This document shows, one piece after another, positions 16,897 to 49,245 of a DNA stretch of 64,000 bases. The DNA is from an uncultured Ruthenibacterium sp. (lineage in GTDB: Bacteria; Bacillota; Clostridia; Oscillospirales; Ruminococcaceae), in contig CALXBN010000018.1 in assembly GCA_944386555.1 (NCBI GenBank), positions 124,001 through 188,000 of the forward strand, in the 5' to 3' direction. The translations under genes and the position numbers were made by a program. The notes under the pieces were generated by a model. That model saw only the letters and a list, made by a program, of their open reading frames with translations, made no database searches and was not told the DNA's origin. Each line of letters begins with the position of its first letter. Position 1 is the stretch's first letter.

Positions 16897-16938
16897 GGAT
16901 AAACCCTCCTTTTTTAATGGAGCAAAGCCCTTGCCTAT

Positions 16939-16967: not shown

Positions 16968-16972
16968 GAAGC

Positions 16973-16992: not shown

Positions 16993-17048
16993 ATACCGCG
17001 TAAAAATCCCAAAGGCTTTTTTATACAGTTTGTGATGCGTCACCTGCC

Positions 17049-17897
17049 TTAGTCCGGCAGGAACATCTCGCCGTATCCCATCTGTACCAGGTTGTCATGG
17101 CTGATTTTCAAACTTTCAAAAGGCGTGCGCCCATAGGTCAAGTCCTGCTCAATGAAGAAGTATTCACACCCGCTTGCCAGGCCCGATTCAATGCAATCCT
17201 TGATCGGCAAATTGCCCTCGCCTACCTCGGCGTACTCAATGATGTCGGCGCCAAAGCCCTCCTGGGCGTATTTACGCCCGTTGATACGGTAGTCTTTCAG
17301 GTGCAGCACCCGCACGCGGCCCTTGTAATCCCGGATGACCTCCACCGGGTTGGCGCCGCCCCGCTGGATCCAGTGGATGTCCAGTTCAAACCCAATGTGG
17401 GGCGCGTTGTCCCGTATGATATCCAGCACATACTGGCCGTCATATTTGGTAAATTCGGCATGGTGGGTGTGGAAATACAGGTCGATCCCCTGTTCTTTCA
17501 GCCGCACGCCCATCCCGTCGATGGCGGCTGCGAAGGCCAGCGCCCCCTCCCGGCTGCCCAGGGCCTCGTAGGGCAGCATGCTGATGCGCACCACAGTGCA
17601 CCCCAGGGTGCGGCAGTCCGCCACAATCTTGTCAAAGTCCTCCTCCAGGTTGTCCATGTCGGCGGCCCACTCCTCCTGCATAGGGGAGACCAGGGCTGTC
17701 ACGGCGCTGATGCGCGCCCCCAGCTCTTCCTCGGCCCGCTTCAGCGCGGCCACGTTCTCGGCCGTCATGGGAACCTGGCTCACCTCAAAGTGATACAGCC
17801 CCGCCTGGGTGCACTTGCGAATGGCCTCATACAGGCCGCATTCCTTCAAAATGGGCACGACCGTGCTCATCTGTACGCCAATATGCGCTTTGCTCAT
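17049..17897 (-). CDS. Sugar phosphate isomerase/epimerase (xylose-isomerase-like TIM barrel)
   Basis: A 282-residue TIM-barrel protein of the AP-endonuclease-2/xylose-isomerase-like family. Metal-ligand-type segments along the barrel are FHTHHAEF, GFELDIHWIQ, VLHLKDY and the late FIEQD; together these acidic and His residues form the usual divalent-metal site. Relatives isomerise or epimerise sugars and inositol derivatives or eliminate 3-keto-glycosides. AGGAGGG precedes the ATG at 17897 and the gene starts three bases after the GPH symporter stop, so the two are co-transcribed. It pairs functionally with the Gfo/Idh gene that follows. Confidence 0.82.
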   Translation of the reverse strand: MSKAHIGVQMSTVVPILKECGLYEAIRKCTQAGLYHFEVSQVPMTAENVAALKRAEEELGARISAVTALVSPMQEEWAADMDNLEEDFDKIVADCRTLGCTVVRISMLPYEALGSREGALAFAAAIDGMGVRLKEQGIDLYFHTHHAEFTKYDGQYVLDIIRDNAPHIGFELDIHWIQRGGANPVEVIRDYKGRVRVLHLKDYRINGRKYAQEGFGADIIEYAEVGEGNLPIKDCIESGLASGCEYFFIEQDLTYGRTPFESLKISHDNLVQMGYGEMFLPD

Positions 17898-17900
17898 TGC

Positions 17901-19322
17901 TTAACCCTCCTGTTTCTGCATCGCATGCCGTTTTTCCAGATCGGTGGTCACGGTCGCCATGGTTTTTTTGTCCAGGTTGTAAATCAGCCCTACGGAGATC
18001 AGCGTCAGCACCGCGGTCAGCAGATACAGCCCTGCTACCAAATATCGCATATTGCTGGCAACTGCCATGGGCTGGTCGGCTCCCAGCGTGGCATCATAGC
18101 CCAGCCAGGTGGCCAGCAGAATACCCGCCGAGGGGAATACACCCTGGGCCAGCTTGCGGAAGAAAGAGTGCAGGGCATAGTTGGTACCCTCGTTGCGCTC
18201 GCCGAATTTCCATTCACCATAATCGATGGCATCCGATACCATGGCCATGTTGATGCAATTGTAGTATCCACCGGCAACAGCCCCCAGCACCATGCACAGG
18301 GTGTACAGTGCAAGGCCCTTGCCATCCGGTGTAATGGGCAGAACAAACAGCAAACCGTAGGAAATGCACATGCCGACGGCACACAGCACAGAGCCCTCTT
18401 TTTTCCCCAGTTTTGGCGTAATTTTTCCGATGAATGGAACATACAGGAAAATGCCGACATAGGAGAGGTATCCCAGCAGGCCGGAGATCTGCACATTGTG
18501 GAAATAGGACTGGAACATGACCGTCATCGCTGTAGATGCGCCGTAAAACTGAATAAAACCAACTACGATTGCCAGCGTGATGCCGACAATGGCACGGTTG
18601 CGCATGAAATTCTTGCATGCGGTCAACACATTGAATTTCGGTGCATCCTCGCCCACCTTCACGTCTGCATCCACACGGATAACGGTTTTCCGCACCAGGT
18701 ACTGGAATGACACAACGCCGACGCCGCCCAGAATCAGGGCGATCCAGAACAGGCGGTTGCCCATCATGTTATTGGTGGCGTCATAAATCAGATACGGCAA
18801 AATGATACCCGTCAAAATGCCTGCCACGCATGCGCCCACATTGCGCCAGGTGGACAGCTGCGCACGGCCCGTGGGATCATCGGTGATCATCCCCAGCAGG
18901 CTGCCATAGGGCACGTTGGCCACGGTGTAGAAAGCATCCCATATGATGTACCCGGCCACAAACAGGATGTTTTTCGCCATGGCCGGCGCGCCCTGCCAGG
19001 GAATAAAGCACATGGCACCGCCAACCAGCAGCCCCCAGCCGCCCACATTGATGTACGCCAGGAACTTGTTTCGCTTGTAGTGATGCTTGTCCGTGTCGAC
19101 CATGGCGCCGATGATCGGGTCGTTAATCGCGTCCCACACCTGCACCAAAAGCAGCAGGCCGGCCATCAGCACTTGGTCGATGCCCATAAACTGTGTCCAG
19201 AAAATGGTTAGATAGCTTTTCAGGCCAAATGACATATTGCAGCCGAAGTCACCGGCGGCATAAGCCAGCTTGTCCACAATGCCAAATTTGCGCAGGGCTT
19301 TGGCCTCTGTTTTGCTTGCCAT
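17901..19322 (-). CDS. GPH-family glycoside-pentoside-hexuronide:cation symporter
   Basis: A 473-residue membrane protein with about twelve helices. It has GPH/MelB family signs: the N-terminal KLAYAAGDFGCNMSF, the loop DAINDPIIGAMVDTD with its conserved acidic residues for cation coupling, and ANVPYGSLLGMITDD. It should import a glycoside or uronide with Na+ or H+. AAGGAGG lies seven bases before the ATG. It is the first gene of the minus-strand unit, divergent from the AraC gene, and probably imports the substrate for the GH2, Gfo/Idh and TIM-barrel enzymes. The sugar itself cannot be named. Confidence 0.88.
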   Translation of the reverse strand: MASKTEAKALRKFGIVDKLAYAAGDFGCNMSFGLKSYLTIFWTQFMGIDQVLMAGLLLLVQVWDAINDPIIGAMVDTDKHHYKRNKFLAYINVGGWGLLVGGAMCFIPWQGAPAMAKNILFVAGYIIWDAFYTVANVPYGSLLGMITDDPTGRAQLSTWRNVGACVAGILTGIILPYLIYDATNNMMGNRLFWIALILGGVGVVSFQYLVRKTVIRVDADVKVGEDAPKFNVLTACKNFMRNRAIVGITLAIVVGFIQFYGASTAMTVMFQSYFHNVQISGLLGYLSYVGIFLYVPFIGKITPKLGKKEGSVLCAVGMCISYGLLFVLPITPDGKGLALYTLCMVLGAVAGGYYNCINMAMVSDAIDYGEWKFGERNEGTNYALHSFFRKLAQGVFPSAGILLATWLGYDATLGADQPMAVASNMRYLVAGLYLLTAVLTLISVGLIYNLDKKTMATVTTDLEKRHAMQKQEG

Positions 19323-35424: not shown

Positions 35425-35471
35425 CAAAAAGCCCTCCGATACAGCTAAACGGCCATATCAGAGAGCTTTTT
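35425..35471 (-). terminator. Probable terminator of the sulfatase-locus operon
   Basis: AAAAAGC-CTC-GATA pairs with TATC-GAG-GCTTTTT across single-base bulges, with a T-rich 3' side on the minus strand (TTTTTGTT). It follows the ROK stop by 18 bases. Confidence 0.65.
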
Positions 35472-35489: not shown

Positions 35490-36473
35490 TCATACAATCG
35501 GTATCTGCCGCTCAGCTTCCTGTTCTTTGCCCAAAAGTGCCGCACCGATGACGCCCGCATCATTTTGCAAAACAGCCGCTGCGATGCGCGTCTGCCTGAC
35601 ACTTCCCCGCGCGTAGCCATGCTGCGCGGCAAAAGCACGCACAGGGCCCAGCAGCGTTTCCCCTTCCCGGCTGATGCCGCCGCCCAGGCACAGCATTTCC
35701 GGCTGAAAAATATTGATGATGCTGGTTATGCCAAGGCACAAATACCGCACATAGGCCTGTACCACTTTTTTCGCCGCAGAATCACCAGCCCGCATTGCTT
35801 CAAAAGGTGTGCGCCCGTCGACACAACCTCCATGTTCCGCCGCCCAACGGTGCATCAAGCTGTCCGGCGTTGTCCGCATTGCAAATTTTGTCTGTTCGAT
35901 CAAAGCGGTTACACTGCCGTACTGCTCAAAACATCCGCGCAGACCACAGTTGCAGGGCTTTCCTTTCAGGTCTAAAACGAAATGCCCCAGTTCTCCGGCT
36001 GCTCCGTTGCAGCCGGAAAGAAGGCGCCCGTTTTCAATGATCCCGCCGCCTATGCCTGTCCCCAGTGTCAGCATCACCATACTGGAGCATCCTTTGCCTG
36101 CTCCGATTTGATATTCTCCCCAAGCCGCTGAATTGGCATCATTTTCTATATAGGCCCTGCAGTTCAATCGTTCCTCTAACATCTGCCGCAGCGGCACCTG
36201 TACAAAATTAATGTTGTTGGCATATTCCACCGTCCCGGTTTTCTTTTCAACACTTCCCGGAACCCCTACGCCTATCCACTGCACCGATTGCCATGCAATA
36301 CCGGATTCTTGCACCAGCTCCCTGCAGAGGGCTGCAATCTGATCGGCAATTCGTTCCGGGGAGCAACCCTGTCCTGTTGGGACGCTTTGCCTGCACAGCA
36401 CTTTTCCTTCCTCTGAAACAATTCCTCCTGCTATATTGGTTCCACCCAAATCAATTCCGACCTGCAGTCCCAT
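35490..36473 (-). CDS. ROK family sugar kinase
   Basis: A 327-residue ROK protein. It has the ATP-phosphate loop DLGGTN (8-13), the catalytic Asp in ENDAN (D112), GTGIGGGI (138-145) and the ROK zinc site: H164, C174, C176 and C181 in CNCGLRGC. No DNA-binding domain precedes it, so it is a kinase rather than a NagC/XylR repressor. It would phosphorylate glucose, N-acetylglucosamine/mannosamine, fructose or another released sugar. GGGGGG lies seven bases before the ATG, which comes three bases after the sulfatase stop. It is the last gene of the long operon and likely does the final trapping step. Confidence 0.9.
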   Translation of the reverse strand: MGLQVGIDLGGTNIAGGIVSEEGKVLCRQSVPTGQGCSPERIADQIAALCRELVQESGIAWQSVQWIGVGVPGSVEKKTGTVEYANNINFVQVPLRQMLEERLNCRAYIENDANSAAWGEYQIGAGKGCSSMVMLTLGTGIGGGIIENGRLLSGCNGAAGELGHFVLDLKGKPCNCGLRGCFEQYGSVTALIEQTKFAMRTTPDSLMHRWAAEHGGCVDGRTPFEAMRAGDSAAKKVVQAYVRYLCLGITSIINIFQPEMLCLGGGISREGETLLGPVRAFAAQHGYARGSVRQTRIAAAVLQNDAGVIGAALLGKEQEAERQIPIV

Positions 36474-36476
36474 CTG

Positions 36477-37832
36477 TTATCCCCCCTCATTTGGTTCACA
36501 TTTGCATGAAGATTCTTCGCACAGCTGCCGCGTAACCTGCTCTGCCACCGCCATTCCCGATTGCCCATTTTCCCGCCCCAGCTGTTCCAGCAAATCCGGC
36601 CCATCCTCCAATACTTCCGACAGCCACTTCTTTTCCAGGCGCTGCAGTTCCTCCAAAACTCTCGGATGCCGTTTTTTTACGTCCTCGCACTCTGCCGGGT
36701 CCGCCTCGCGGTCATATAGCGCATATTCCGGGAAATCCCACAGGCCGGGGCTGTAGGTATGTACCATTTTCCATTTGCCGCAGAGCACTGCCCTTTGGCA
36801 GGTATAAAGTCCATGTTCACATACTAAATAGTTTCGCCTTTCTGCTTTGCCCGACAGGGTCTCCTGCAGCGGTATGCCGTCCCATTCCCCGGGTGGCTCG
36901 ATCCCCCAAAAGCGCGTGATTGTCGGCGCAATATCCAGCCCGTAAACCGGCGCGCTGCATCGGGCAGATTTGTTCTTATTTCCCGGATACTTCAAAATCA
37001 GCGGGATATGGATACAGCTGTCATGGACTGTCCCATGTTCCAAAATCATCTGCCCTTCCCCATACTGCTCCCCATGGTCTGCACTGAGCACAATGGCACA
37101 GTCCTGATACCATCCGCGGCATCTGAGTGCATCGCACATTTGTCCAATCAAAAAATCTGTATAGCGGACTTCTGCATCATAGAGGCAAATCAATTCCTCC
37201 AGATCGCTCCGCGTGACTATTTTCATATGCCGCCCGCCGCGATACAGCGGCGAAGCCGCCAGATCCGCCAGCATTTTGTCGGAAATTAATGAAGTATCCG
37301 GAGTATAGCTTCGGTCGATCCACGCTTCAGGCGGCGTCAGCGGGCCATGAGGATCCCAATAATGCAGATGCAGGAACAAATCTTCTCCACGGAACCCGTC
37401 CAGGAATTCAATTGCCGCATCGTTGACAGCCTGCCCTGCAAAGCGCTGGAAATTTTCTGCCCGGCAGCGATAAGAAGGATCCATCACATGTGAAAAGCCA
37501 TTATAAAACCAAGGAGCCGGATGCCGTCCGAAAGAAGAAACCGTTGCCGTATGAAATCCATGCCAGGCCAGCACACGCGCAAGGGCGTTTTGGGGCGGCA
37601 GTTTTATCTCACATCCCGCCCTTCCATGCGTCTCCACGCCATTGCGGACGCCGAAGCATCCCGTCAGGACGGCGGCCCGCGACGGCATACAGGGTGTGTT
37701 GGAGGCATATGCCTGCGTAAAGCACACGCCGTCAGCCGCCAGCGCGTCAATATACGGCGTTTTAATGCTGCCGCCATAGCAGGAAAGATGGTCAGGGCGC
37801 AAAGTATCCACATCAAAATAGATGACTTTCAT
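36477..37832 (-). CDS. Type I (formylglycine) sulfatase, Cys-type, cytoplasmic
   Basis: A 451-residue alkaline-phosphatase-fold sulfatase. Metal ligands start at FDVDTLRPDHL (residues 6-16). The maturation motif is TPCMPSRAAVLTG, where C48 becomes formylglycine and R52 follows; LSADHGEQYGE carries the second metal pair. With Cys instead of Ser, either anSME-type or FGE maturation is possible, and neither gene is in the window. There is no signal peptide, so it should act on imported substrates inside the cell. GAGGT precedes the ATG, and the start overlaps the Gfo/Idh stop by four bases. It removes sulfate from a sugar or another sulfate ester; the position attacked is unknown. Confidence 0.9.
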   Translation of the reverse strand: MKVIYFDVDTLRPDHLSCYGGSIKTPYIDALAADGVCFTQAYASNTPCMPSRAAVLTGCFGVRNGVETHGRAGCEIKLPPQNALARVLAWHGFHTATVSSFGRHPAPWFYNGFSHVMDPSYRCRAENFQRFAGQAVNDAAIEFLDGFRGEDLFLHLHYWDPHGPLTPPEAWIDRSYTPDTSLISDKMLADLAASPLYRGGRHMKIVTRSDLEELICLYDAEVRYTDFLIGQMCDALRCRGWYQDCAIVLSADHGEQYGEGQMILEHGTVHDSCIHIPLILKYPGNKNKSARCSAPVYGLDIAPTITRFWGIEPPGEWDGIPLQETLSGKAERRNYLVCEHGLYTCQRAVLCGKWKMVHTYSPGLWDFPEYALYDREADPAECEDVKKRHPRVLEELQRLEKKWLSEVLEDGPDLLEQLGRENGQSGMAVAEQVTRQLCEESSCKCEPNEGG

Positions 37833-38863
37833 GTATTACCTCGAGCAAAATGCGCACAGCCTTCATGATAAATGGCACAAATCAATTCCTGCGTGTGAAA
37901 TGCATCTTCGGCGCGAATATACATGGCGCCCCTTCCCAAGATGCTGTCGTAAAAGTTATTGATCTGCTTTACATGGCTTGTGCCCCAATACTGTTTCACG
38001 TCGCCGTATTCAAACACCTGCGACGGGTCATTGTCTGCAATATAGGTGCGCCCGTTGTACAGACTGACCGTCGCTTTAGGCCCTTCCATCACTGCTTTTC
38101 CCCGTTCGCAAAACAATTCCAGACGAACCGCCTCATCCACGCAGAAATGATTCATGACGTAGAACGCGCAATATGCCCCACCTTCAAATTCAATGCGGCC
38201 TTCCGCCGTGTCTTCCACCAAAATATTCGGATGTGTCCAGTTGGACAAGCTGGCTTTGACCTGTACGACGGGCTTTCCGAAAAACCAGCGCATCAGGTCC
38301 AGCGTATGGATCGCCTGATCAATCACTACACCGCCGCCCTCTTTTTCCCAGGTACCCTTCCAGTCGCTTTGGGAATAATACTCTGACGACCTGTTCCAGG
38401 TGAGCAGTAAGCGCCCGGCCTGTACCTGCCCCAGTTCCCCGCTGTCCAAGCATTGTCGAATGAGCTGTGAACCGGCATTGTAGCGATTTTGAAAGATAAC
38501 CCCCAACGTTTTTCCGGTGCTCTCTGCAGTATCCAGCATCCGGCGGGCATCTTTCAATTTGATCGCCATCGGCTTTTCTGTCAAAACATGGCATCCCTGC
38601 TGCATGGCGTAGCAGGCCAGCGGCGCATGCAGATAGTGCGGGGTGCAAATATGTACCACATCTGGCCGCTCTTCATCCAGCATACGCTTGTAATCTGTGT
38701 AACCACGGCATGAAAAACGGTGAGCCGCACTTTGCGCCCGCTCTGGTTTTATGTCACAAACCGCCGTTAGCTGTGTATATGGATTTTTGCTGACCGGCAC
38801 CGCATGCATTGGGAAGATATTGCCGCATCCAATGATAGCCGACCGTAATTTTCGATTTTCCAT
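37829..38863 (-). CDS. Gfo/Idh/MocA family oxidoreductase (sulfatase-linked)
   Basis: A 344-residue NAD(P)-dependent sugar oxidoreductase. Its Rossmann start is SAIIGCGNIFPMH, the EKP motif is at 96-98 and the catalytic-domain block GGGVVIDQAIHTLDLMRWF contains the expected His. The extra VQVKASLSNW and the EFEGGAYCAFYVMNH strand are typical of the C-terminal domain. It is encoded between the cupin and sulfatase genes and overlaps the sulfatase start (ATGA). It is distinct in sequence from the other two oxidoreductases of the window. It probably oxidises a hydroxyl of the imported sugar (often C3). Confidence 0.86.
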   Translation of the reverse strand: MENRKLRSAIIGCGNIFPMHAVPVSKNPYTQLTAVCDIKPERAQSAAHRFSCRGYTDYKRMLDEERPDVVHICTPHYLHAPLACYAMQQGCHVLTEKPMAIKLKDARRMLDTAESTGKTLGVIFQNRYNAGSQLIRQCLDSGELGQVQAGRLLLTWNRSSEYYSQSDWKGTWEKEGGGVVIDQAIHTLDLMRWFFGKPVVQVKASLSNWTHPNILVEDTAEGRIEFEGGAYCAFYVMNHFCVDEAVRLELFCERGKAVMEGPKATVSLYNGRTYIADNDPSQVFEYGDVKQYWGTSHVKQINNFYDSILGRGAMYIRAEDAFHTQELICAIYHEGCAHFARGNT

Positions 38864-38888
38864 CGTATCCGCCCTCTTTTGAAACAGC

Positions 38889-38926
38889 AGGCCGCTTCGG
38901 CAGGCAAATGCCCCCCGAAGCAGCCT
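38889..38926 (-). other. Intercistronic hairpin
   Basis: AGGCTGCTTCGG pairs with CCGAAGCGGCCT (one mismatch) around a 14-base loop; no T-run. It lies between the cupin and second Gfo/Idh genes and may set relative mRNA levels. Confidence 0.5.
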
Positions 38927-38952
38927 CCCGGTGACGCTCTGCCTGAACGGAA

Positions 38953-39672
38953 TCAGGCCTCTCTTTCTTTCACAAACCGCTCAAACCAGATATATGCCAC
39001 TTCTTTGCCAGGCTCCGCCGTAAGCGAATGATCCAGCCCGGCGGGAACGAAACTCCAGTCACCGGCATGATGCGAAACGCTTTCCGTTTCCACCGTCAGC
39101 GTAAAGTCCGCATGATCTAGTCCATAGTTCCACTGATCCACCGCGGGATGCCCTTTCTCTACCGTTCCCTCACCGACGGCTTTCACTACGCCCAGCAGGT
39201 TACGGCCTACCTCGCCGGAATACAGTACCTGCCAGCTGCGGGTATGCGGGCCTTTGCAGTCCTGCGTATATTCGTGGCATTCGCTAAAGGAGCGGAATAT
39301 GGGCAGCGTTGTGTGGCAAGCATCATAATTTTTCTTGTCGCCCTCCGTCATATCCAGCACCAGGCACAGGAACTCCAGGTCTTCGACCGCATGGATCGTA
39401 AACTCTCCTTGGTCAAAATTCGGCACAAAAAACGACAGCTCTGTGATATTGCGGGCGAAACGGTCCGTCGTGACATATCCCTTGCCGCTAGTGAAACAAT
39501 ACACTGCGGTTTTGTCCGCATACTTCTCCGGCTGTACACTGCAGCCGGCTTTCAAAAAGCATTTATAGTTGTGCGCCATCGGAAAGGTACCGGGCAGCAT
39601 TTCAAGACGTGCATAACCGTTGGCGTCATACTGGGGAACCATTTCTTCTTTGCGAACAATTGCGATGGACAT
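38953..39672 (-). CDS. Double-cupin domain protein (sugar-locus, uncharacterised)
   Basis: A 239-residue protein with two cupin-like halves. The first (about 35-115) holds VYCFTSGKGYVTTD and a late CLVLDMTEG; the second (about 130-235) has HTRSWQVLYSG, HPAVDQWNYGLDHADFTL, SVSHHAGDWSFVPAGLDHSL. The His and Glu/Asp pattern of the second half could bind a metal. Relatives include mannose-isomerase-like and (S)-ureidoglycine-aminohydrolase-like bicupins, but I cannot assign an activity. The ATG at 39672 has AAGGAAGG eight bases upstream. Given its neighbours it may isomerise or tautomerise a keto-sugar intermediate. Confidence 0.7.
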   Translation of the reverse strand: MSIAIVRKEEMVPQYDANGYARLEMLPGTFPMAHNYKCFLKAGCSVQPEKYADKTAVYCFTSGKGYVTTDRFARNITELSFFVPNFDQGEFTIHAVEDLEFLCLVLDMTEGDKKNYDACHTTLPIFRSFSECHEYTQDCKGPHTRSWQVLYSGEVGRNLLGVVKAVGEGTVEKGHPAVDQWNYGLDHADFTLTVETESVSHHAGDWSFVPAGLDHSLTAEPGKEVAYIWFERFVKEREA

Positions 39673-39733
39673 AATCAATACCTTCCTTCTTTATTTTCCG
39701 CTGCTGGCCGCCCGGCAGCTGGTTTAAATGGTT

Positions 39734-41209
39734 TTACCGGATTTGTGCATAAATCGGGGAAATAAACGCCCACTGATTGTTCTTCTGCACAAATTCCGCA
39801 TGATACACATCGGTTCCGCCGGTGCCTGTATCCTCTATTTCAAGTACCATTTCACTGGCGTAATCAGGCACGGCTGCATGGATCTTCACCGCTTCAGAGT
39901 GCCAGGGCTTTATATGCCAGGACACCCCTCCCTCCAGCAGCTGTGCAATGCTTGCCGTATAGGTTCGGCCATTTACTTTTACAGTGACCAGTGTCTCAGG
40001 ATTTCCCTCAATCTCCACGACGGCAGCATCTGTCTGCGGATGGAGCGTACTTTTATTCCGTACCGTTTCACATTGCCAGGCAAACATCTGCGCACTGCGT
40101 TCCAGCACACGATTGTCGATGTCATTCACCTCAGCCGGCTGCCCGTCAACATTTGTGGGTGAGAGCACACTGCGTCCGCGCAGATAGAGGTTTGCCCCCG
40201 CAATATGCCCATCAGTGGTGATGCACCCCTGCCAGCGCGTCAGGTCTTCACTGTTGCCCCATCCCATTTCCACACGGAGCTTGTAGCTGCGTGAACGGCG
40301 CTTCGCAAGCTGCTCACCACACAGAACTGCCAGCGGTTTACAGTTTTTGTAAATCACCAGCTTATCTGCCCAGTACTCGCCCTTCACTGCGCAGCGGATC
40401 GTCCGCCGGCTGCCTTCTGCTGTTTCCCCCAGACCTTTGCCATTGACGCTGAAGGTGCAGACAATGCGGTCGCCGGTCACCGCATAAGCGCGCCCGGCGA
40501 GCAGTGCTTCCCAAATTCCTTTTCTGCTCTTTTCTTCTGTCAGAACTGCCGTCAGGCCATCTCCGTATGAACCGGGGAAACCCGCATGGTGATCCGTCGA
40601 ACCCAAAAAGCAAAAGCGGTTGCCGCGCTGCAGCCCGTGATATACCGTATTGCGGGAATCCCGGGGGCCCATATCATGGTAATAAGGATACGGGGCTGCC
40701 TCACTCATGGCGCATCCGTGCTTTGAAAACACTTCAACGCAGGGAGAAATGCGCTGTTCGTACAAATCCCAATTGATGCCGCGGTACTCTGGCGTGTAGC
40801 CGATGTGATGGGGCACTGCAATGGCCTGTACCCCGCAGTCGTTCACCAATTGTGCGGGGCTGTCCCGGTAAATCAGCGGAAACGAGTCGTCGGGGGAGAT
40901 GATATGGTGATCGCCGTATAGGGAAGAGTGCATCTCATAACTCTGAAAGGTGACCAATTCATCATCATTTTGCCTTGCCATCTCCGCACGGATTTCTTCC
41001 CAATGATCGTGCAGCTTTTGAAAGCCTTCCTGATGGAAATCCACAATGAATTCTGTCTCAGATGTCCGCTGGTAAATATCCGGCCACATCGCATGCCCGG
41101 TGATACAGCAGAAATCCAAATGGCTGCGGGCAATTTTCAAAGCGTTTTCCAGGCTTCCAAACCCATATGTAATGCCGCAGTGATTATGAAAATCTCCCCA
41201 TAAAATCAT
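39734..41209 (-). CDS. PHP-superfamily metallohydrolase (CehA/McbA or DUF3604-like)
   Basis: A 491-residue protein. The N-terminal two thirds form a PHP-type metal site: WGDFHNHC (residues 4-11), CCITGHAMWPD, AVPHHIGY and GSTDHHAGFPGS, matching the His/Asp order of PHP hydrolases in the CehA/DUF3604 group. The rest (about 265-491) is beta-rich and may be an accessory domain. There is no signal peptide. AAAGGAG lies seven bases before the ATG. Related genes occur with sulfatases in sugar loci, but their reaction is not established. Phosphoester, lactone or other hydrolysis are all possible; this is one of the least understood proteins here. Confidence 0.7.
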   Translation of the reverse strand: MILWGDFHNHCGITYGFGSLENALKIARSHLDFCCITGHAMWPDIYQRTSETEFIVDFHQEGFQKLHDHWEEIRAEMARQNDDELVTFQSYEMHSSLYGDHHIISPDDSFPLIYRDSPAQLVNDCGVQAIAVPHHIGYTPEYRGINWDLYEQRISPCVEVFSKHGCAMSEAAPYPYYHDMGPRDSRNTVYHGLQRGNRFCFLGSTDHHAGFPGSYGDGLTAVLTEEKSRKGIWEALLAGRAYAVTGDRIVCTFSVNGKGLGETAEGSRRTIRCAVKGEYWADKLVIYKNCKPLAVLCGEQLAKRRSRSYKLRVEMGWGNSEDLTRWQGCITTDGHIAGANLYLRGRSVLSPTNVDGQPAEVNDIDNRVLERSAQMFAWQCETVRNKSTLHPQTDAAVVEIEGNPETLVTVKVNGRTYTASIAQLLEGGVSWHIKPWHSEAVKIHAAVPDYASEMVLEIEDTGTGGTDVYHAEFVQKNNQWAFISPIYAQIR

Positions 41210-41231
41210 GAAACGGCTCCTTTCTCTGTTT

Positions 41232-42047
41232 TCAACGGATCATGAATTGTTCCAAATGGCGTTTGGACAGCATGATATGCTTCCAGCGGTTTTTAGGGTC
41301 AGCCCATACCTCGCCATGCGGTTCAATGATGATATAACCGTCGTATCCGGCATTCCACAGCATCCCCATCATGACATTCCATTTCAGCTGTCCCATGCCT
41401 ACTATCGGTTCGATCTCCCAGCCATCATCCCCATAGCGGAAAATATCTTTGGCATGGAAATGAGCGATTCGCCCTGCGTACCGTTTCATAATCTCATAGG
41501 GATCGTCTTTCATGTTTCGCATCACACCCACTGGATCCAGCTTGATGTTGAATTCAGGTACTTCCCGCAGCAGTTGGTCCAGAATGGCGCGTGAATGGAC
41601 AAAATTTCCGCCGTGGCCCAAATAGCAGGCCAGTTTGATGCCCTTGCCGTCGGCAATTCCTTTATAATACAGATACTCTTTCTTGAATTCGGCGATATTT
41701 TTATCCGGGTCGTCCAGGGCATACTCACCGGTATTGAAAAACACCATCTTACAGCCGATAGCTTCTGCCATATCCAAGAATTCCAGCATGGTTTTGCGCA
41801 CTGCGGCACGCTCGTCCGGGTCCGGGCTGATCGTATTCAGCCACCACAGGCCGCAGGCAGCGGGTTCCACCGGCGTGTTTTCAAACGCCGGCTTGATCTT
41901 ATCCAGAGAAAAATCCAGGCCGCATTTCGAGTTGAACAGCAATTCCACTCCGTCGATTCCCTGCTGCTGGGCAAGATCCACCCATCGGCGCAGATCCTGT
42001 GCGTCCCGGCAATCCTTCATCTCTACGATAAAGCCGATTTTGTTCAT
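41232..42047 (-). CDS. Sugar phosphate isomerase/epimerase-type TIM barrel (sulfatase-linked)
   Basis: A 271-residue xylose-isomerase-like barrel. Metal-ligand candidates are in GVELLFNSK, VFFNTGEYA, LACYLGHGGNF, FNIKLDPVGVM, IAHFHAKDIF and YIIIEPHGEVW, the usual Glu-Asp/His-Glu pattern. It starts 14 bases after the first Gfo/Idh gene of the operon, the same Gfo-plus-TIM pairing seen in the locus at 15.8-17.9 kb. In known systems such pairs oxidise a glycoside to the 3-keto form and then epimerise or eliminate it. AAAGGGG precedes the ATG at 42047. Confidence 0.83.
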   Translation of the reverse strand: MNKIGFIVEMKDCRDAQDLRRWVDLAQQQGIDGVELLFNSKCGLDFSLDKIKPAFENTPVEPAACGLWWLNTISPDPDERAAVRKTMLEFLDMAEAIGCKMVFFNTGEYALDDPDKNIAEFKKEYLYYKGIADGKGIKLACYLGHGGNFVHSRAILDQLLREVPEFNIKLDPVGVMRNMKDDPYEIMKRYAGRIAHFHAKDIFRYGDDGWEIEPIVGMGQLKWNVMMGMLWNAGYDGYIIIEPHGEVWADPKNRWKHIMLSKRHLEQFMIR

Positions 42048-42061
42048 CTCAAATTCCCCTT

Positions 42062-43102
42062 TCAAATGCCCAGGACATGCTCAATGCGCCCGGAATGATA
42101 GGAGCGGCGCGCCGCCTCCACCACCTGCAGCGGCACAAACGCATCCCGCGGCTTTTTGCTGTTGTCCGTCCCATTCAGCAGGTCATCCACAAATGTTTTG
42201 TGGTGGATATATCCAAAGAATTGCGGATCCACAGCCGCCGCCTGCCAATGGATATCTTTGCGGGGATGCCCGTCCAAATTCCACCCGTAATAGACCATAT
42301 CGCTGCGATGCGGATTATACAAATAAATCACGCCTTTGGTCCCGTAAATTTCCATTTCAAAGCGGTTGGTCAGCGCCACCTGCGTCCAGAATATCTCATG
42401 AAACACCGTTGCACCATTCGCAAGACGGTAATTGAGAATCGCCGTGTTTTCCGCACCGTTCAGATTTGCATGCTCGCCGAATTCTTCCTGGCCGTCTTCG
42501 GCCCGCGGCGAAAGATGCAGCGCAAACACCTCTTCGATGGGCGAGCCTGCAATCGTATGGATTAGATCCATCCCATGGCAGCCTATGTCCATCATGCATC
42601 CGCCGTAGCTTGGCGCCGTATCAAACGGGTTTTTGGTGGCATTGCGCATCCGGATGTGACGAATCTCGCCGATTTTTCCTTCTTGCACCAATTTGCGTGC
42701 AGCAATGGAGCCGTCCATATAGCTGTGCATAAAAGAAGGCGTCAGCTTTACGCCGGCACGCTCCACCGCCTGGATGATTCTGCGCCCTTCTTCAATGCTG
42801 TAGGCAAAGGGCTTCTGCGAAAAGATATGCTTGCCTGCGGCGGCGGTTTCAATGCACAATGTGGCATGCATTTCTATTTTTGTAAAAATACAAACTGCGT
42901 CGATGCTTTCGTCCTGCAGGATCTCATGGTAATCCAGTGTGTATTTTTCGAAGCCATAATCCTCTTTGGCTTTGCGCGCCCGTTCTTCAATCAGGTCGCA
43001 CGCCCATACAAGCTGTGCGCCCTCCACCCGCTGCAGCGCAGGCAGATGGTATTCATTGGCAATGCTGCCGCAGCCGATAACTCCGAATCTGATCTTTTTC
43101 AT
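42062..43102 (-). CDS. Gfo/Idh/MocA family oxidoreductase with QKP in place of EKP
   Basis: A 346-residue oxidoreductase. The Rossmann loop is GVIGCGSIANEYH (7-19). The conserved EKP motif reads QKP (Q96-K97-P98): the Lys is kept and the Glu lost. The second domain has GGCMMDIGCHGMDLIHTI with the expected acid and His. The region ALHLSPRAEDGQEEFGEHANL looks like a family insertion. The ATG at 43102 has AAAGGAG six bases upstream; the longer frame enters the binding-protein gene. It stands first among the catabolic genes after the ABC importer, so it may act early on the imported substrate. Confidence 0.86.
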   Translation of the reverse strand: MKKIRFGVIGCGSIANEYHLPALQRVEGAQLVWACDLIEERARKAKEDYGFEKYTLDYHEILQDESIDAVCIFTKIEMHATLCIETAAAGKHIFSQKPFAYSIEEGRRIIQAVERAGVKLTPSFMHSYMDGSIAARKLVQEGKIGEIRHIRMRNATKNPFDTAPSYGGCMMDIGCHGMDLIHTIAGSPIEEVFALHLSPRAEDGQEEFGEHANLNGAENTAILNYRLANGATVFHEIFWTQVALTNRFEMEIYGTKGVIYLYNPHRSDMVYYGWNLDGHPRKDIHWQAAAVDPQFFGYIHHKTFVDDLLNGTDNSKKPRDAFVPLQVVEAARRSYHSGRIEHVLGI

Positions 43103-43122
43103 TCCATACTCCTTTGGGCAAG

Positions 43123-43150
43123 GCCCGCGCCCGCCACAGCGGGCGCGGGC
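43123..43150 (-). other. Strong GC hairpin after the solute-binding protein gene
   Basis: GCCCGCGCCCGC pairs perfectly with GCGGGCGCGGGC around four bases, with no T-run. Such hairpins after binding-protein genes often protect the upstream mRNA and raise binding-protein levels over the downstream genes. Confidence 0.65.
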
Positions 43151-43172
43151 TTTCGCCTGAATTGGTAGTTGC

Positions 43173-44795
43173 TCAGGCAAGCCAACGATCATAGGCGTCC
43201 TGATTGATTTGAATATAGTCTTCCACCGGCATATTGTTCAGCTCTTCCACATAAGCATCCCACTCGTCCAGGCTCTTTTCACCCGTAATAAACTGCACAA
43301 CATTTTCCGTAGCGTAGTTGACGATATCCTGTGCATAAGTTCCCAGCTTAATGCTCTCCTCTTCGGTAAGCTTCACTCTGGGCACCTTCTCAAACGGCAC
43401 AACATAATCGCGCACCACATCGTTTGCAGCTTTCGTCTCAGGCAGCTGAGCGGCGCTTTGGTCCACTTCGTCGGTTACATACTGCGGCAAATACCCGCCG
43501 GGATAGATGGCCCACTGGCCCAAAGCCTGGTCCAGGGTCAGCCCGTCCGGATTGTTGGTGATGTTGTCCAGCAGCTGATACTTGCCGTCTACCACTTCGT
43601 AGCTTTCTCCTTCGATGCCCAGCCGGCACAGAACCGTGCCCTCTTCGCTGTAGAAGTAATCCAGCCAGCGCATAGTCGCTTCAGGGTATTTGTTTGCAGA
43701 AGTGATGACCGCCACACCGGTCATCTGCACATTGCTCTCCACGTCGATCAGTGCACGATCGCCATAAGGCCCTTCCAGGACCGGGCACTGCACATAGTTT
43801 TCGGCAGCGGCGCCCATCCACTGCGTATTCTGCGCGCGTGCCACAAAGCCCACCTGGTCAGCATTCACTTTCGCGGCAACCTGCGTTTGGTCTTGAGAGT
43901 AGCTCTCCTTATCGGTGAGCCCTTCCTCCCACAGTTTATTGAGGAATTCCACCATATTTTTGAATTTCTCCTCACGGCCAATGAACCGCACTTTGCCGTT
44001 GTCGTCAATGTCCAGCCAGCTGAAAGAGTAATCGCTGTTCACGATGCCGTTGACACCAAATCCCCAGGAACCCAGCAGGTCATAGAACATACGGTGGGGA
44101 TAATCCTTGCCCACAACGCAATAGGGGATCTCATCCTTCTGCCCATTGCCGTTCGGGTCTTGATCCCGGAAAGCGATTAGCACATCATACAGCTCGTCAA
44201 TGGTGGTTGGCTCTTCCAGGCCCAGGTTATCCAGCCATGTTTTGTTGATCCAATAATGGTGGATCAAATTGCCTTCCGTCTTATTGAGCTGCGGGCAGGA
44301 ATAAACATGGCCGTCCGGCATCGTGATCCCCTTGCGGATCGCTTCGTCGCTGTCGATCAGCGCTTTCAGATTGGGAGCGTAGTCAAAATAATCATCCAGC
44401 GCAATGATCTGGCCATTGGCCGCATACTTCATTTCTTCCTGCGGACTCAATTTTGCACGCACAATGATATCCGGCAGTGTATTGGATGCAAACAGCAGGT
44501 TGCGTTTTTCGGTAAACCCTTCGTCCGGGACGCATTCCCACTCAATATGGATGCCTGTCAGCTCTTCCATGCGTTTGAGTGCAGGGTGCTCGTTCCAGTC
44601 TGTCACATTGGCGTTCAGCGCCACCAAACCGTGCAGCGTAATGGGCTCGTCCACAATGGGCATCCCATCTTGGCTGACATTTACCGAAGTATCCTGTGCC
44701 TGTGCAGACGCACCGCTGCTTGCAGTGTCCCCACACCCTGCCATTGTGCCAAGCAGCATAATGGCCGCCAAAAACATTGTCAACAATTTTTTCAT
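43173..44795 (-). CDS. Extracellular solute-binding lipoprotein (LplA-type, family 1)
   Basis: A 540-residue lipoprotein with signal MKKLLTMFLAAIMLLGTMAGC (Cys 21), followed by a Ser/Ala linker and a large two-lobe sugar-binding domain: GLVALNANVTDW, ASNTLPDIIVRAKLS, NPNGNGQKDEIPY (a calcium-like D-x-N-x-N loop often seen in this group) and the C-terminal helices. It resembles LplA/YtcQ proteins, which bind complex oligosaccharides (often pectic or uronic). It is encoded after the two matching permeases. No ATPase gene is present, as usual for this type, which shares an MsmK-like ATPase from elsewhere. A ribosome site AAGG precedes the ATG. Confidence 0.92.
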   Translation of the reverse strand: MKKLLTMFLAAIMLLGTMAGCGDTASSGASAQAQDTSVNVSQDGMPIVDEPITLHGLVALNANVTDWNEHPALKRMEELTGIHIEWECVPDEGFTEKRNLLFASNTLPDIIVRAKLSPQEEMKYAANGQIIALDDYFDYAPNLKALIDSDEAIRKGITMPDGHVYSCPQLNKTEGNLIHHYWINKTWLDNLGLEEPTTIDELYDVLIAFRDQDPNGNGQKDEIPYCVVGKDYPHRMFYDLLGSWGFGVNGIVNSDYSFSWLDIDDNGKVRFIGREEKFKNMVEFLNKLWEEGLTDKESYSQDQTQVAAKVNADQVGFVARAQNTQWMGAAAENYVQCPVLEGPYGDRALIDVESNVQMTGVAVITSANKYPEATMRWLDYFYSEEGTVLCRLGIEGESYEVVDGKYQLLDNITNNPDGLTLDQALGQWAIYPGGYLPQYVTDEVDQSAAQLPETKAANDVVRDYVVPFEKVPRVKLTEEESIKLGTYAQDIVNYATENVVQFITGEKSLDEWDAYVEELNNMPVEDYIQINQDAYDRWLA

Positions 44796-44853
44796 CGTAA
44801 ACCTTACCTTCTTTCTTTTATTTGAATATACCGAAGGCCTTGCGGCCTTTCGC

Positions 44854-45756
44854 TTACCCTTTCACAGCGCCGATCATAACACCTTTCACAAAGAACTTTT
44901 GCAAAAAAGGATACAAAACCAGCATGGGAACACTTGACACAATGATCACCGCATATTTGATACTTTCGCTGACCATATATTGGCTAATATCAATTCCGGC
45001 TGTATCAATCATACTGTCTGCCATATTATTCAGCAGAATCTCCCGCAGGAACAGCTGCAGCGGATACGATGCACGGTCGCTCAAATAGATCAGGCCGTTG
45101 AAATAGCTGTTCCAGAAATTCACGCCGTAAAACAGCACCAGCACCGCCAGGATCGGCGCAGACAGCGGCAGTACTACACGGAAAAACACGCGGATATCCC
45201 CGCACCCATCCATCGCCGCAGCCTCGTACAGTTCTTCCGGAATCGTGTTTTGCATAAATGTGCGCGCAACGATGATGTTGTACACCGAAACCGTGCCCAC
45301 CAGGATGACCGCCCACATCGTGTTGTAAAGGCCCAACTGCCGCACAATCAGATACGTTGGGATCATGCCGCCGGAAAAAAACATCGTGAACAGGAAAAAG
45401 CTCATCAGCTTGTTTCGGCCGTACAGTTTTTTCCGTGAAAGCGGGTAGGCGGCGCTGAATGTGATGACAATCGTCACAACGGTACCCACCACTGTATACA
45501 GCAATGTATTCTTATAGCCGGTAAAGATGTCGTCGTTGCGGAATACTTGCTTGTACGCATCCAGGTTAAACCCTTTGGGCCACAGCCAAACGTTGCCCTG
45601 GAATATTTCCATCGGGTCGCTGACGGAAGCGGATGCTACAAATACCAGCGGATACAAAATGACCAAAACGCTCAGAATCGTCAGTACCGCCAAAACAACA
45701 TCAAAGGCCCGGTCTCCGGCGCTGATGCTTGTGCGCCGTTTTTTTACTGCAGTCAT
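44854..45756 (-). CDS. Carbohydrate ABC transporter permease (LplC/YtcP-type)
   Basis: A 300-residue permease with six membrane helices and the ATPase-coupling EAA loop EELYEAAAMDGCGDIRVFF (about residues 180-198) followed by RVVLPLSAPILAVL. The N-terminal cytosolic stretch has TSISAGDRAFD and the first outer loop VSDPMEIFQGNVWLWP, typical of the YtcP/LplC branch. It follows the other permease by 23 bases and precedes the binding protein. The C-terminal KFFVKGVMIGAVKG is the branch's usual ending. Confidence 0.93.
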   Translation of the reverse strand: MTAVKKRRTSISAGDRAFDVVLAVLTILSVLVILYPLVFVASASVSDPMEIFQGNVWLWPKGFNLDAYKQVFRNDDIFTGYKNTLLYTVVGTVVTIVITFSAAYPLSRKKLYGRNKLMSFFLFTMFFSGGMIPTYLIVRQLGLYNTMWAVILVGTVSVYNIIVARTFMQNTIPEELYEAAAMDGCGDIRVFFRVVLPLSAPILAVLVLFYGVNFWNSYFNGLIYLSDRASYPLQLFLREILLNNMADSMIDTAGIDISQYMVSESIKYAVIIVSSVPMLVLYPFLQKFFVKGVMIGAVKG

Positions 45757-45779
45757 TGCCCCTCACCCTCTTTCATCTG

Positions 45780-46787
45780 TTAAAACAGGCTGGTGCCGCT
45801 TATTTTCTTCGCGAGCTTATTGACCACCAGCAGCAATATGATATTGATCACATTATTGAATAAACCAATGGCCGTCGAGAAACCATAGTCACTGTTGATC
45901 AGGCCCGCTTCATATACGAATGTCGAAATTACCTGTGATGTCTCCGTATTCTGCGCATTTTGCATCAGGAAGACCTTTTCAAACCCCATGTTCATCACTT
46001 GGCCAATATCCAAAATGAACATAATGATCGCCGTAGGAAGAATTCCCGGCAGATTGATGTGCAGGATCCGCTGCAGCCGGGATGCGCCGTCAATCTGCGC
46101 CGCTTCGTGAAGCTGCGGATCAATGGAAGCCAGAGCCGCAATATAAATGATGGAATTCCAGCCGGCATTTTGCCAGACACCCGACCACACATACATGGAA
46201 GGAAACGCAGCTGCACTTGTCAGGAACCCAAATTTTTCGAACCCCATTTTGGCCAGCAGCACATTGATCAGCCCGTTGCCCTGGTTGAAAAACAGATTCA
46301 GGATGCCCACCAGCACCACCACAGATATGAAATGCGGTGCATAGGATATCGTTTGAACCACTTTTTTCATTTTGGGGCTCTGCACTTCGTTGAAGATCAG
46401 TGCCAGGAGGATCGGAAAGGGAAAAGAGACAATTAAGTTGTACAAGCTCAGGCCCACTGTATTCCGGATCAGGCGCCAAAAATAGTAAGAATCAAAAAAG
46501 CGGTTCAGGTTTTTCATCCCTGTCCACTGGCTTCCCCAAATGCCTTCAATCGGTGAATAATACTTAAAAGCGATTTGTACACCATACATGGGCAAATAGC
46601 AAAACACAAGGAAATAGAGAATCGCGGGGATCAAAAACACATACAAGCCCTTACTCTGATTCAATTTGGTCCGTATGCGCCTGCGCTTCAGTGCATTGAC
46701 TGCCCTCTTTTCTTCGCGCGACATGATTGGCTTTGGATCTTTCTGCTTTTTGAAGAAGCCCACCGCGCCGTTGAGCATCTTGACCAT
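45780..46787 (-). CDS. Carbohydrate ABC transporter permease (LplB/YteP-type)
   Basis: A 335-residue permease with six helices. LLFxx-like start LYVFLIPAILYFLVFCYLPMYG is the LplB/YteP signature first helix; the EAA loop is QLHEAAQIDGASRLQRILHI. It has a basic cytosolic N-terminal stretch of about 45 residues. The start is uncertain: the ATG at 46787 is taken because the longer frame crosses the probable promoter; 46778 and 46724 are other in-frame ATGs. It is the first gene of the minus-strand operon, divergent from the AraC regulator. Confidence 0.88.
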   Translation of the reverse strand: MVKMLNGAVGFFKKQKDPKPIMSREEKRAVNALKRRRIRTKLNQSKGLYVFLIPAILYFLVFCYLPMYGVQIAFKYYSPIEGIWGSQWTGMKNLNRFFDSYYFWRLIRNTVGLSLYNLIVSFPFPILLALIFNEVQSPKMKKVVQTISYAPHFISVVVLVGILNLFFNQGNGLINVLLAKMGFEKFGFLTSAAAFPSMYVWSGVWQNAGWNSIIYIAALASIDPQLHEAAQIDGASRLQRILHINLPGILPTAIIMFILDIGQVMNMGFEKVFLMQNAQNTETSQVISTFVYEAGLINSDYGFSTAIGLFNNVINIILLLVVNKLAKKISGTSLF

Positions 46788-46930: not shown

Positions 46931-46983
46931 AAATGATATAAATGGTAAATTTCTTGTGAATTCTATGTCTGGAGGGGATGTCT

Positions 46984-47799
46984 ATGAAGGAAAAGACACC
47001 CGGATTGTTTCGTTCAATGATGAAATTCAATGCCTCCGCTGTTGTTGGAATCATTTTCTTGTTTTCTATTTTCAATATTTTCTCCATTGCACAAATCCAG
47101 CAGCGCCAGGCCAGCCTTCAGACAATGGCTCTTCAGCAGGCCAGCCAGTCCATTGCAGACTTCATTGCAAGTGCAGATCAGCTGGGAATCGTCGTTCAGA
47201 ACAACACCCAGCTGCAGGCATATAATGTATATAAAAACCGCCACCTGCCCCATAACATCGTATGGGAAGTGGAAATGCTCACACCTTCCGTCAATTCCTT
47301 ATCTTCTTTGGGGATCGTATATATCAGCTCCAACTATTACCCAATCAATAATGTCATCTATTCCAGCAACGGCCGTTTTACTTACAGCGAATACTGCCGG
47401 AATGAACTGGGCGGCAGCATGGACGAAGCCAGCCTGATTTCTGCCGTCCAGAACGCCGAAACCGCCCATTTCGTCCCGCAGTTTGAAAACAATTTTTCCA
47501 GCCTGCTCTACGTCATGCCGATCCCTTCACCCTACCTGTTCTCCTCGGGACGGATGCTGCTGAGGCTGGACTACACCACGTTTACCAGTGCACTGCGCAC
47601 GGCAGCCGGCCAGGAAAGCGATCTGTATGTTTTTGACAGCAGCGGGAATCTGCTGCTGTATTGGGGACCCACCTACAATAACGATATTTCCTTGGCACGT
47701 ACCAGCGTATCCTTGGACGGCCCGTTTCCCGGCAAGGCCACTTTTCGCTGTCAGCTGGACAATGCCGGCATTCAGGTTATCCAGGCACTGGACTTTTGA
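46984..47799 (+). pseudogene. Membrane-bound AraC-type regulator, 5' part (sensor) ending at an in-frame TGA
   Basis: The first 271 codons of a regulator that continues in the same frame after one TGA (47797-47799). It has a membrane helix (about residues 15-37), then an extracytoplasmic sensor domain (about 40-270) with LYVFDSSGNLLLYW near its end. The second membrane helix lies beyond the stop. The ATG at 46984 is chosen because GGAGGGG lies six bases upstream; the ATG at 46978 touches it. Family relatives sit beside LplA/B/C transporters and sense the sugar outside. Alone, this fragment has no DNA-binding domain. The stop may be a real mutation, a sequencing error or a recoded site. Confidence 0.8.
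47797..47799 (+). other. In-frame TGA splitting the AraC-type regulator
   Basis: Frame continues without a shift: ALDF, then TGA, then SYYQPTLTAVASLVF. The following T gives TGA-T. Both flanks read as one protein of about 753 codons. Confidence 0.85.
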
Positions 47800-47826
47800 T
47801 CTTACTATCAACCTACGCTCACGGCC

Positions 47827-49245
47827 GTGGCCAGTTTGGTTTTTCTGTCCGTTTTTATCACTATTTTTGGCATCCGCATTTTTAACGCAGTCGCTCGCTA
47901 TACCGCGCAGCCTTTGTCGCAGCTGGTTCAGCGCGCCAGCGCTCTGGACCATGGATCGCCCGCCGAAGGGACCGACGAAATCACACGTCTTTCCCATGTA
48001 TTTGAAGAGTTGGTTGCACAGCAAGCCACACTCTCAGCCGCAATGGAAAGCCACACGGAGTTGGAATCAGCGCAATATTTGTTGTATCGCCTGGGCGTTT
48101 TCGCCCCCAGGGATTTCAGTTTCGCCGTAACCGAAAAGCTGGATCGGGACTTGGATCAATGGCTTATCTGCGGCCTGCGTGTACTGGTGTATCGCTTCGA
48201 TGACACCATCCACTTTGTGGAAAACTATCCGCCGCGGGAACAATGGGCTATCAAATCTGCCCTGCGGCAGGAATTTTCTGCTCTATGCCAGGCGCAGCAC
48301 GGATTTGGTCTTGCCGCAGACCTGCCCAACGGCCAAGGCGTTACCGCCGTGGCCGCCTTTCCACCCAATCAAAACAGTGAACAGCTTTTGGATGAAATTC
48401 GTGAGGCGCTGAGCCGGAACTGCGGGCTGTCTCTCTCCTGCAGTATCAGCGACATCATCCATCAGGTTTCTGAATTGCCCACAGCATTTCATGAAGCCAA
48501 TCACAACTGCCGCTACCGGCTGTTTTATGCCAACTCAACCATTACACCGAATTTCGTCTCCAGCATCCGCAGCCAGCGCACCAATCTCTCATATGCCGGT
48601 GCGGAAGAAATCCTGCAGGCCGTTAAGGCTTGCAGCTATCCGGATATTTCCAGAGGGATCAATCACTTTTTTGCCGATATCACACAGCGTGCCACGCTTT
48701 CCTCTTATAAACTGGCCTATTTTGATATACTGTCACGCCTGAACAAACTGGTGTCAGAATGCCCGCGTGCTGAGCAAACCCGCCTGATCAACATGCTGGA
48801 TGTCCTATACGAAAAATGCTATGAGGATATCTCCCATCTGCAAAACGACTTATACCAGTTCTGTACTGCCTTGGCCGACACGACCTTTGCACACCGCTCT
48901 TCACAGCTGAGCGGTGACCTGCTGAGCAAAATCTATTCTTATGTGGACTCAAACTACGCATCCCCCCTGCTTTCCCTCTCTTCAATTGCAGAGAATCTTG
49001 CGTTTTCTCCATCCTACCTTACTCGGTATTTCAAGGAAAAGACCGGCGTGTCACTGATGCAGTATATCGACCGCAGGCGCTTTGAAGAAAGCAAGCATCT
49101 GCTCGCAGCCACTAACCTGCCGATCAAAGCAATCGTAGAACGGGTAGGTTATACCGATGAAGCCAATTTCTCGCGGAAATTCAAAAAGCATGAAGGCATT
49201 ACACCAACGCAATACCGCACCATGCAAAAGCAAAAGAAACCATGA
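47827..49245 (+). pseudogene. Membrane-bound AraC-type regulator, 3' part (TM2, HAMP-like linker, AraC DNA-binding domain)
   Basis: 472 codons from the first GTG after the in-frame TGA. It starts with the second membrane helix (SLVFLSVFITIFG), continues with a HAMP-like linker (ARYTAQPLSQLVQRA), a middle signalling region and the C-terminal AraC domain (about 370-465): two helix-turn-helix units, with SIAENLAFSPSYLTRYFKEKTG and AIVERVGYTDEANFSRKFKKHEGITPTQYR. No ribosome site precedes the GTG, so this part would need read-through or re-initiation to be made. When intact, the protein would switch on the divergent sulfatase/ABC operon on sugar binding. Confidence 0.82.

Follow-up and report, generated by a model that had tools for sequence, protein, structure and literature searches.

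Gene organization and conservation of the operon

The window analyzed here, a 64,000-nucleotide stretch from an uncultured Ruthenibacterium sp. (contig CALXBN010000018.1), contains an operon of ten minus-strand genes (46787 to 35490) encoding components of an ATP-binding cassette (ABC) importer, two Gfo/Idh/MocA oxidoreductases (Gfo1 and Gfo2), a TIM barrel protein, a PHP-fold metallohydrolase (hereafter, window PHP), a cupin-like protein, a sulfatase, and a ROK kinase (Table 1). Adjacent genes overlap or are separated by short gaps, with 4-base overlaps at 42065/42062 (Gfo1/TIM) and 37832/37829 (Gfo2/sulfatase), and Pfam or NCBIfam domains were assigned to eight of the proteins, in agreement with the one-direction series described in an earlier note on this DNA. 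As judged from its family and gene context, window PHP is probably a metal-dependent (N-)desulfatase and not a glycosidase.

Table 1. Features of the operon region in the window
Feature	Position	Strand	Evidence and remarks
LplB-type ABC permease	45780..46787	-	BPD_transp_1, 50 bits; 68% identity to counterpart in Provencibacterium locus L045
LplC-type ABC permease	44854..45756	-	BPD_transp_1, 42 bits; 71% identity to L045 counterpart
Binding lipoprotein, SBP_bac_1	43173..44795	-	Pfam; lipobox within MKKLLTMFLAAIMLLGTMAGC; 57% identity to L045
Gfo/Idh/MocA oxidoreductase 1 (Gfo1)	42062..43192	-	Pfam; K of QKP and DxxxH present; 61% identity to L045
AP_endonuc_2 (xylose-isomerase-like) TIM barrel, weakly IolE-like	41232..42065	-	Pfam, 67 bits; 60% identity to L045
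PHP-fold metallohydrolase, candidate N-desulfatase, family of BT4655-slot protein	39734..41209	-	Homology, model, and synteny
Cupin-like protein	38953..39678	-	No family above threshold; 76% identical to the partner of PHP in L030
Gfo/Idh/MocA oxidoreductase 2 (Gfo2)	37829..38863	-	Pfam; TEKP and DxxxH motifs present
Cys-type S1 sulfatase	36477..37832	-	Sulfatase, 117 bits; SGSH_C, 43 bits; CMPSRAAVLTG at residue 48
ROK sugar kinase	35490..36473	-	Pfam, 237 bits; TIGR00744, 262.4 (cut-off, 260.35)
Terminator-like hairpin and T run at operon end, after ROK	35426..35471	-	By eye; AGCTCTCTGATA...TATCGGAGGGCTTTTT on minus strand
AraC-type regulator with sensor region, divergent	46978..49245	+	In-frame TGA at 47797-47799; L045 homologue in same place

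The two permeases and the binding lipoprotein are those of a CUT1 oligosaccharide importer of the LplBC type, whose ATPase is not among the operon genes. The sulfatase has the Sulfatase domain and the C-x-P-S-R motif of S1 formylglycine (FGly) sulfatases, and the host genome (2.2 Mb, 93% complete, with six sulfatase genes) encodes anSME, the radical-SAM maturase of Cys sulfatases (368.6 bits; cut-off, 349). With no signal peptide seen, the sulfatase is read as cytoplasmic; its matches to PDB entries (84 bits at best) are too weak and mixed to indicate a position-specificity. The ROK kinase barely exceeds the cut-off of the glucokinase subfamily, and the true start of Gfo1 may be internal, at about 43100. 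The hairpin at the operon end was not among the results of a consensus terminator scan. The L045 homologue of the divergent regulator has no stop at the site of the in-frame TGA, which is either a nonsense mutation or an assembly error.

The locus of a second genus, Provencibacterium L045, carries the regulator, LplB, LplC, the binding protein, Gfo1, the TIM barrel protein, the sulfatase, and PHP in the same order, and additionally a heparinase-like lyase without a leader. Identities to the window proteins are 55–71% for the permeases, binding protein, Gfo1, TIM barrel protein, and PHP, 24% for the sulfatase, and 28% for the regulator. Because the same set recurs in this genus, the gene set is more than a chance assembly, and the linkage proposed in the earlier note is conserved at least for the importer, Gfo1, TIM barrel, sulfatase, and PHP genes. 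Among 295 genomes of the order, three (the host genome included) have the PHP gene, which was absent from the ten genus mates examined. Together with the lower G+C content of the operon (52%; window, 56%), this absence suggests that the operon is an accessory locus gained by transfer.

Fold and metal site of window PHP

Window PHP gave no Pfam match over threshold; it reached 48.5 bits with the CehA/McbA model (NF038032; cut-off, 80) and also fell below the cut-off of DUF3604. An AlphaFold2 model built on 46 relatives was confident (predicted local distance difference test (pLDDT) score, 92.6), and its N-terminal domain matched the PHP phosphoesterase structures 2anu and 3e38 with a Z-score of 18, bearing out the PHP label of the earlier note. 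No solved structure was found among the sequence relatives, and the C-terminal region, which matched many immunoglobulin-like β-domains with middling Z-scores, was little informative. The check for a hidden glycosidase or lyase domain that the earlier note had proposed gave none by Pfam, and the structural matches of the N-terminal domain were solely PHP-type proteins. An assignment to the S1_8-type FGly sulfatases was likewise rejected, as the protein has the PHP fold instead and no Sulfatase domain match.

In an alignment of 102 sequences, Asp6, His8, His10, His39, Glu92, His94, His134, His135, His164, Asp206, and His208 are invariant in all covered rows. Window PHP is 34–36% identical to the proteins of the Bacteroidales loci L153/L145 and L108 (34% to that of L153) over 487 columns, that is, over the full length including the C-terminal β-region, and a single hidden Markov model of the family scores Bacteroidales members at >630 bits.

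Relationship to the BT4655 slot of heparan-sulfate loci

For heparin and heparan sulfate to be degraded in the gut, glucosamine must be N-desulfated. Two Bacteroidales loci first showed PHP within a heparan-sulfate locus, and in this order the protein proved to occupy one slot of such loci, alongside glycoside hydrolase (GH) family GH88, polysaccharide lyase (PL) family PL12, an S1_11 6-O-sulfatase, and ROK. Among 20 Bacteroidales loci, the S1_11 gene lies directly before PHP in 17–18, and ROK directly after it in 18 of 19. L153 belongs to a near relative of B. thetaiotaomicron within Bacteroides, and its S1_11 and PL12 proteins match 5G2V and 5JMD with 1168 and 1441 bits, respectively; in L108, the sulfatase scores 978 bits to 5G2V, and the lyase beside PHP is a heparinase III (1124 bits to 5JMD). 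We take 5G2V and 5JMD to be the structures of BT4656 and BT4657, with which the molecule names agree. The nine genes of L153 (SusC–SusD–GH88–PL12–S1_11–PHP–ROK–major facilitator superfamily (MFS) transporter–heparinase-like lyase) match one to one the B. thetaiotaomicron genes listed from BT4660 to BT4652 (PMC9067506), with PHP falling on BT4655. When BT4655 is deleted, N-sulfoglucosamine (GlcNS) stays behind in the medium and growth falls in proportion to GlcNS content; BT4655 has been called a novel, uncharacterized sulfatase family outside SulfAtlas (PMC10154612), not predicted to be FGly-dependent (PMC11980591).

Since window PHP belongs to the family filling this slot of GlcNS de-N-sulfation, its likely substrate shifts to a sulfated glucosamine compound. 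We put at about even the chance that the PHP family constitutes an FGly-independent class of sulfohydrolases with a metal-dependent PHP fold, cleaving the N–S bond of N-sulfoglucosamine, which would explain BT4655. Among the papers searched, none ties PHP proteins to desulfation or names the family of the BT4655 slot, a statement that the subscription literature may contain. As the window operon is devoid of PL12, GH88, and S1_11, we claim that window PHP may work like BT4655, and not that it is a heparan-sulfate enzyme. Placing the BT4655 slot in the PHP metallohydrolase family assigns to it a fold with a metal-dependent active site, supplies more than 200 relatives to examine, and makes many further bacteria candidates for N-desulfation; were this true, a sulfatase type independent of FGly maturation would be added to those known.

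Gene neighborhoods of PHP relatives

With each species represented by one genome, the scan gave 242 relatives of window PHP, 80 of which were kept; members of the family occur in Bacteroidota, Bacillota, Planctomycetota, Verrucomicrobiota, Chloroflexota, and elsewhere. Around the 35 Firmicutes PHP loci having at least 6 kb on both sides, neighbors within 10 kb include a sulfatase (23/35), LplB (18/35), GH88 (15/35), heparinase II/III (12/35), and ROK (12/35). The density of sulfatase genes is 0.11 per kb in the kilobase nearest to PHP, falling to about 0.03 per kb 4–10 kb away, with an overall value of 0.003 per kb in the window genome (6 genes in 2227 kb). The location of PHP also tracks that of its partners: the protein is exported with a Tat or lipoprotein leader in Bacteroidales, together with a periplasmic sulfatase and periplasmic lyases, and leaderless, hence cytoplasmic, in Firmicutes, in which these enzymes are not periplasmic. 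In Paenibacillus (L058, L060, and L064), a NagB-family gene immediately 3′ of PHP fits free glucosamine as the product. The idea that GH88 and Gfo/Idh are mutually exclusive options in PHP loci was dropped (Fisher p = 0.39).

Other gene sets were also seen around PHP. In Planctomycetota and Verrucomicrobiota (L083–L107), Gfo/Idh, an MFS transporter of the nucleoside-H+-symporter type, PHP, and another Gfo/Idh recur, often without a sulfatase, and are possibly part of a distinct pathway. A PHP relative with 43% identity (L023, 6396–18451) lies near a DUF3604 protein, a URO-D-type protein, LplBC-type permeases, a NagC/ROK-type protein, and a sulfatase, and the PHP loci L043, L044, L037, and L078 share a DUF2264 protein and a conserved protein of 590 residues with no Pfam family (e.g. 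L044, 6315–8096).

Oxidoreductases, TIM barrel, and cupin-like protein

The Gfo1–TIM pair is 60–61% identical to that of L045, where it stands in the same order, with the same importer, and is followed by the sulfatase and PHP. Both Gfo enzymes retain the catalytic lysine and DxxxH, and the TIM barrel protein retains the Asp, His, and Glu ligand positions, while having YLGHGG at a site where canonical epimerases have glutamate. Their best NCBIfam matches are IolG for both Gfo proteins (140.8 and 144.4 bits; cut-off, 355) and IolE for the TIM barrel protein (a partial match of 34.9 bits; cut-off, 290). IolE, inosose dehydratase, is a keto-sugar eliminase, and since it is the best match of the TIM barrel protein, a Gfo/TIM oxidation and elimination step is reasonable and possible in the operon. 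The specific route put forward in the earlier note, of the type of DgpA with DgpB/C, was not supported: models for subunits of C-glycoside deglycosidase matched none of the ten proteins in Pfam or NCBIfam, libraries in which a DgpA-specific model is not known to exist, and models of the BT_2158/BT_2159-type glycoside 3-dehydrogenases were reached with 35–58 bits only (cut-offs, 650–750). Nor was a small CGE-type β-subunit matched in these libraries among the ten proteins, of which the cupin-like protein belongs to no classified family. A homologue of the TIM barrel protein was found in 1 of the 80 PHP loci, and none above threshold in 196 other genomes of the order.

The cupin-like protein, termed a double cupin in the earlier note, scores 15.7 bits to Cupin_2, below the cut-off of 27.2, so that this label is weakly supported; its profile reaches E = 0.012 to quercetin dioxygenase at best among PDB entries, it is not IolB or KduI by Pfam, and, unlike that of window PHP, its AlphaFold2 model is unusable (pLDDT, 34.7). 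Relatives of this protein elsewhere occur in Gfo–Gfo–TIM modules with a glycyl radical enzyme, where a sulfatase was not seen; L028 (1256–9265) and L029 (4733–12735) contain a glycyl radical enzyme with its activase, the cupin, a ManA-like isomerase, a TIM epimerase, and two Gfo/Idh proteins.

None of the ten operon proteins matched a GH or PL family in the Pfam profile scan. The absence of a glycosidase is true of the operon alone, as a GH2 gene lies about 20 kb away, its product matching best the β-glucuronidase LacZ4 (533 bits; cut-off, 950). This gene is part of a second minus-strand cluster (13477–19322) consisting of GH2, a Gfo/Idh, an AP_endonuc_2 TIM barrel, and a GPH sugar symporter, in which a Gfo/Idh–TIM pair thus accompanies a glycosidase.

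Proposed pathway and alternative explanations

From the families of the encoded proteins, we assume that the operon serves to scavenge a small saccharide that is sulfated and contains glucosamine; other gut bacteria would release it, most likely from heparin/heparan sulfate or from a sulfated glycan of a similar kind. The saccharide would be brought in intact by the ABC importer, and the cytoplasmic Cys-type sulfatase, matured by anSME, would take off an ester sulfate. Window PHP would then remove, through a metal-activated water in the PHP active site, the sulfate that is left, most likely the N-sulfate of glucosamine. Gfo1, the TIM barrel protein, the cupin-like protein, and Gfo2 may oxidize and rearrange, and possibly eliminate, the partner sugar or the glycosidic bond, and ROK would phosphorylate the freed sugar. 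We regard this scheme as a whole as having roughly an even chance of being correct; a conventional glycosidase, the GH2 enzyme described above, may also take part in the route. The import, intracellular desulfation, oxidoreductases, and kinase anticipated in the earlier note find support, with GH and PL lacking from the operon, GH88 and heparinase II/III lacking from the genome, plausible catalytic residues in the Gfo and TIM proteins, and the linkage kept in a second genus. The earlier note, which saw the sulfatase–PHP–cupin set as a possible new variant, missed that PHP is a member of the BT4655-slot family and no unexplained extra; the operon is a variant for sulfated-sugar scavenging. Altogether, the interpretation of the earlier note is partly supported, and the PHP desulfatase lead is the valuable part of the present analysis.

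Several observations weigh against the scheme proposed here. A domain search of the host genome found neither heparinase II/III (PF07940) nor GH88 (PF07470), and the heparan-sulfate link therefore rests on relatives. The filling of the BT4655 slot by a PHP-family protein is assigned through synteny in the near relative L153 and not from the sequence of BT4655 itself, for which no published enzyme assay was found in the literature. In about one-third of the Firmicutes PHP loci, a sulfatase is missing from the neighborhood. In Paenibacillus L069, L070, and L072, PHP adjoins GH88, sulfatases, and a PL8 chondroitinase-ABC-type lyase (with a signal peptide seen in L069). The substrate of chondroitinase carries no N-sulfate, and the presence of such a lyase near some PHP genes suggests that the substrate may vary by clade. 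The tree further shows a deep split with a long branch between window PHP and the BT4655-slot clade, because of which the substrate of window PHP could differ from that of the latter. These two observations, and the CehA/McbA ester/carbamate hydrolases as the nearest named model, favor a PHP protein that removes a group other than N-sulfate, as an O-sulfatase, an N-deacetylase, or a CehA/McbA-kind ester/carbamate hydrolase, in an operon for a sulfated saccharide containing N-acetylgalactosamine or another uronate-containing saccharide. We consider this improbable in view of the metal-site residues, identical on both sides of the split, the NagB-family gene and ROK kinases beside PHP, which fit free glucosamine, and the BT4655 genetics, which are specific to N-desulfation (PMC10154612).

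The core of the operon might instead be an oxidative deglycosylation of a C- or O-glycoside, in which Gfo1 oxidizes C3 and the TIM barrel protein β-eliminates, with the sulfatase and PHP as accessories. Mn-dependent TIM barrel enzymes are known to β-eliminate 3-keto-glycosides (PMC10628242), and the catalytic residues and metal ligands, the Gfo1–TIM pair kept with the transporter in L045, and the operon free of GH and PL are all consistent with such chemistry. It is nevertheless rather doubtful, since the named glycoside 3-dehydrogenase models were not matched above cut-off, a second CGE-type subunit was not found, and the TIM homologue is rare (0/196 and 1/80, as given above). This rarity and the widespread PHP–sulfatase linkage argue for desulfation as the conserved core. 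An ordinary degradation, in which the GH2 β-glucuronidase-like enzyme cuts an imported or external glycoside, the operon only desulfates and metabolizes monosaccharides, and Gfo/TIM/cupin convert a rare sugar through oxidation and isomerization as in inositol catabolism, would accommodate IolG and IolE as the nearest models and the clustering of GH2 with the GPH symporter, a third Gfo/Idh, and a second TIM barrel. This too seems unlikely to us, as GH2 scores below its equivalog cut-off and lies in a separate operon with its own transporter, and there is no evidence for co-regulation of the two.

Comparison with known systems

The operon resembles the 3-keto β-elimination systems DgpA/DgpB-C (CGE) and AtOGE (PMC10628242) in combining an oxidoreductase with a metal-dependent TIM barrel, and differs from them in its low similarity, the lack of a detected small CGE subunit, and its predicted sulfated substrate. 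Inositol catabolism by IolG–IolE–IolB likewise brings together Gfo/Idh, TIM barrel, and cupin-type proteins, whereas the window proteins are far below the IolG and IolE cut-offs and the cupin is assigned to neither IolB nor KduI. As for window PHP, it shares the PHP fold and metal motifs with the CehA/McbA and DUF3604 proteins (the L153 protein reaches DUF3604 at 30 bits, above its cut-off), but scores below both cut-offs and has an extra conserved C-terminal β-region. The S1_8 FGly N-sulfamidases (Phep_2826 and human SGSH) carry out the glucosamine N-desulfation that is proposed for window PHP, yet do so with a sulfatase fold and formylglycine, in contrast to the PHP metallohydrolase fold without a sulfatase domain. 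Unlike the Bacteroidales version, which is exported and encoded in a locus with lyases, GH88, and SusCD, window PHP is cytoplasmic, ABC-linked, and 34–36% identical, in a genome without heparinase II/III or GH88; the slot orthologous to BT4655 of the heparin/heparan-sulfate polysaccharide utilization locus of B. thetaiotaomicron nonetheless holds a full-length homologue of window PHP, there too paired with a sulfatase and ROK.

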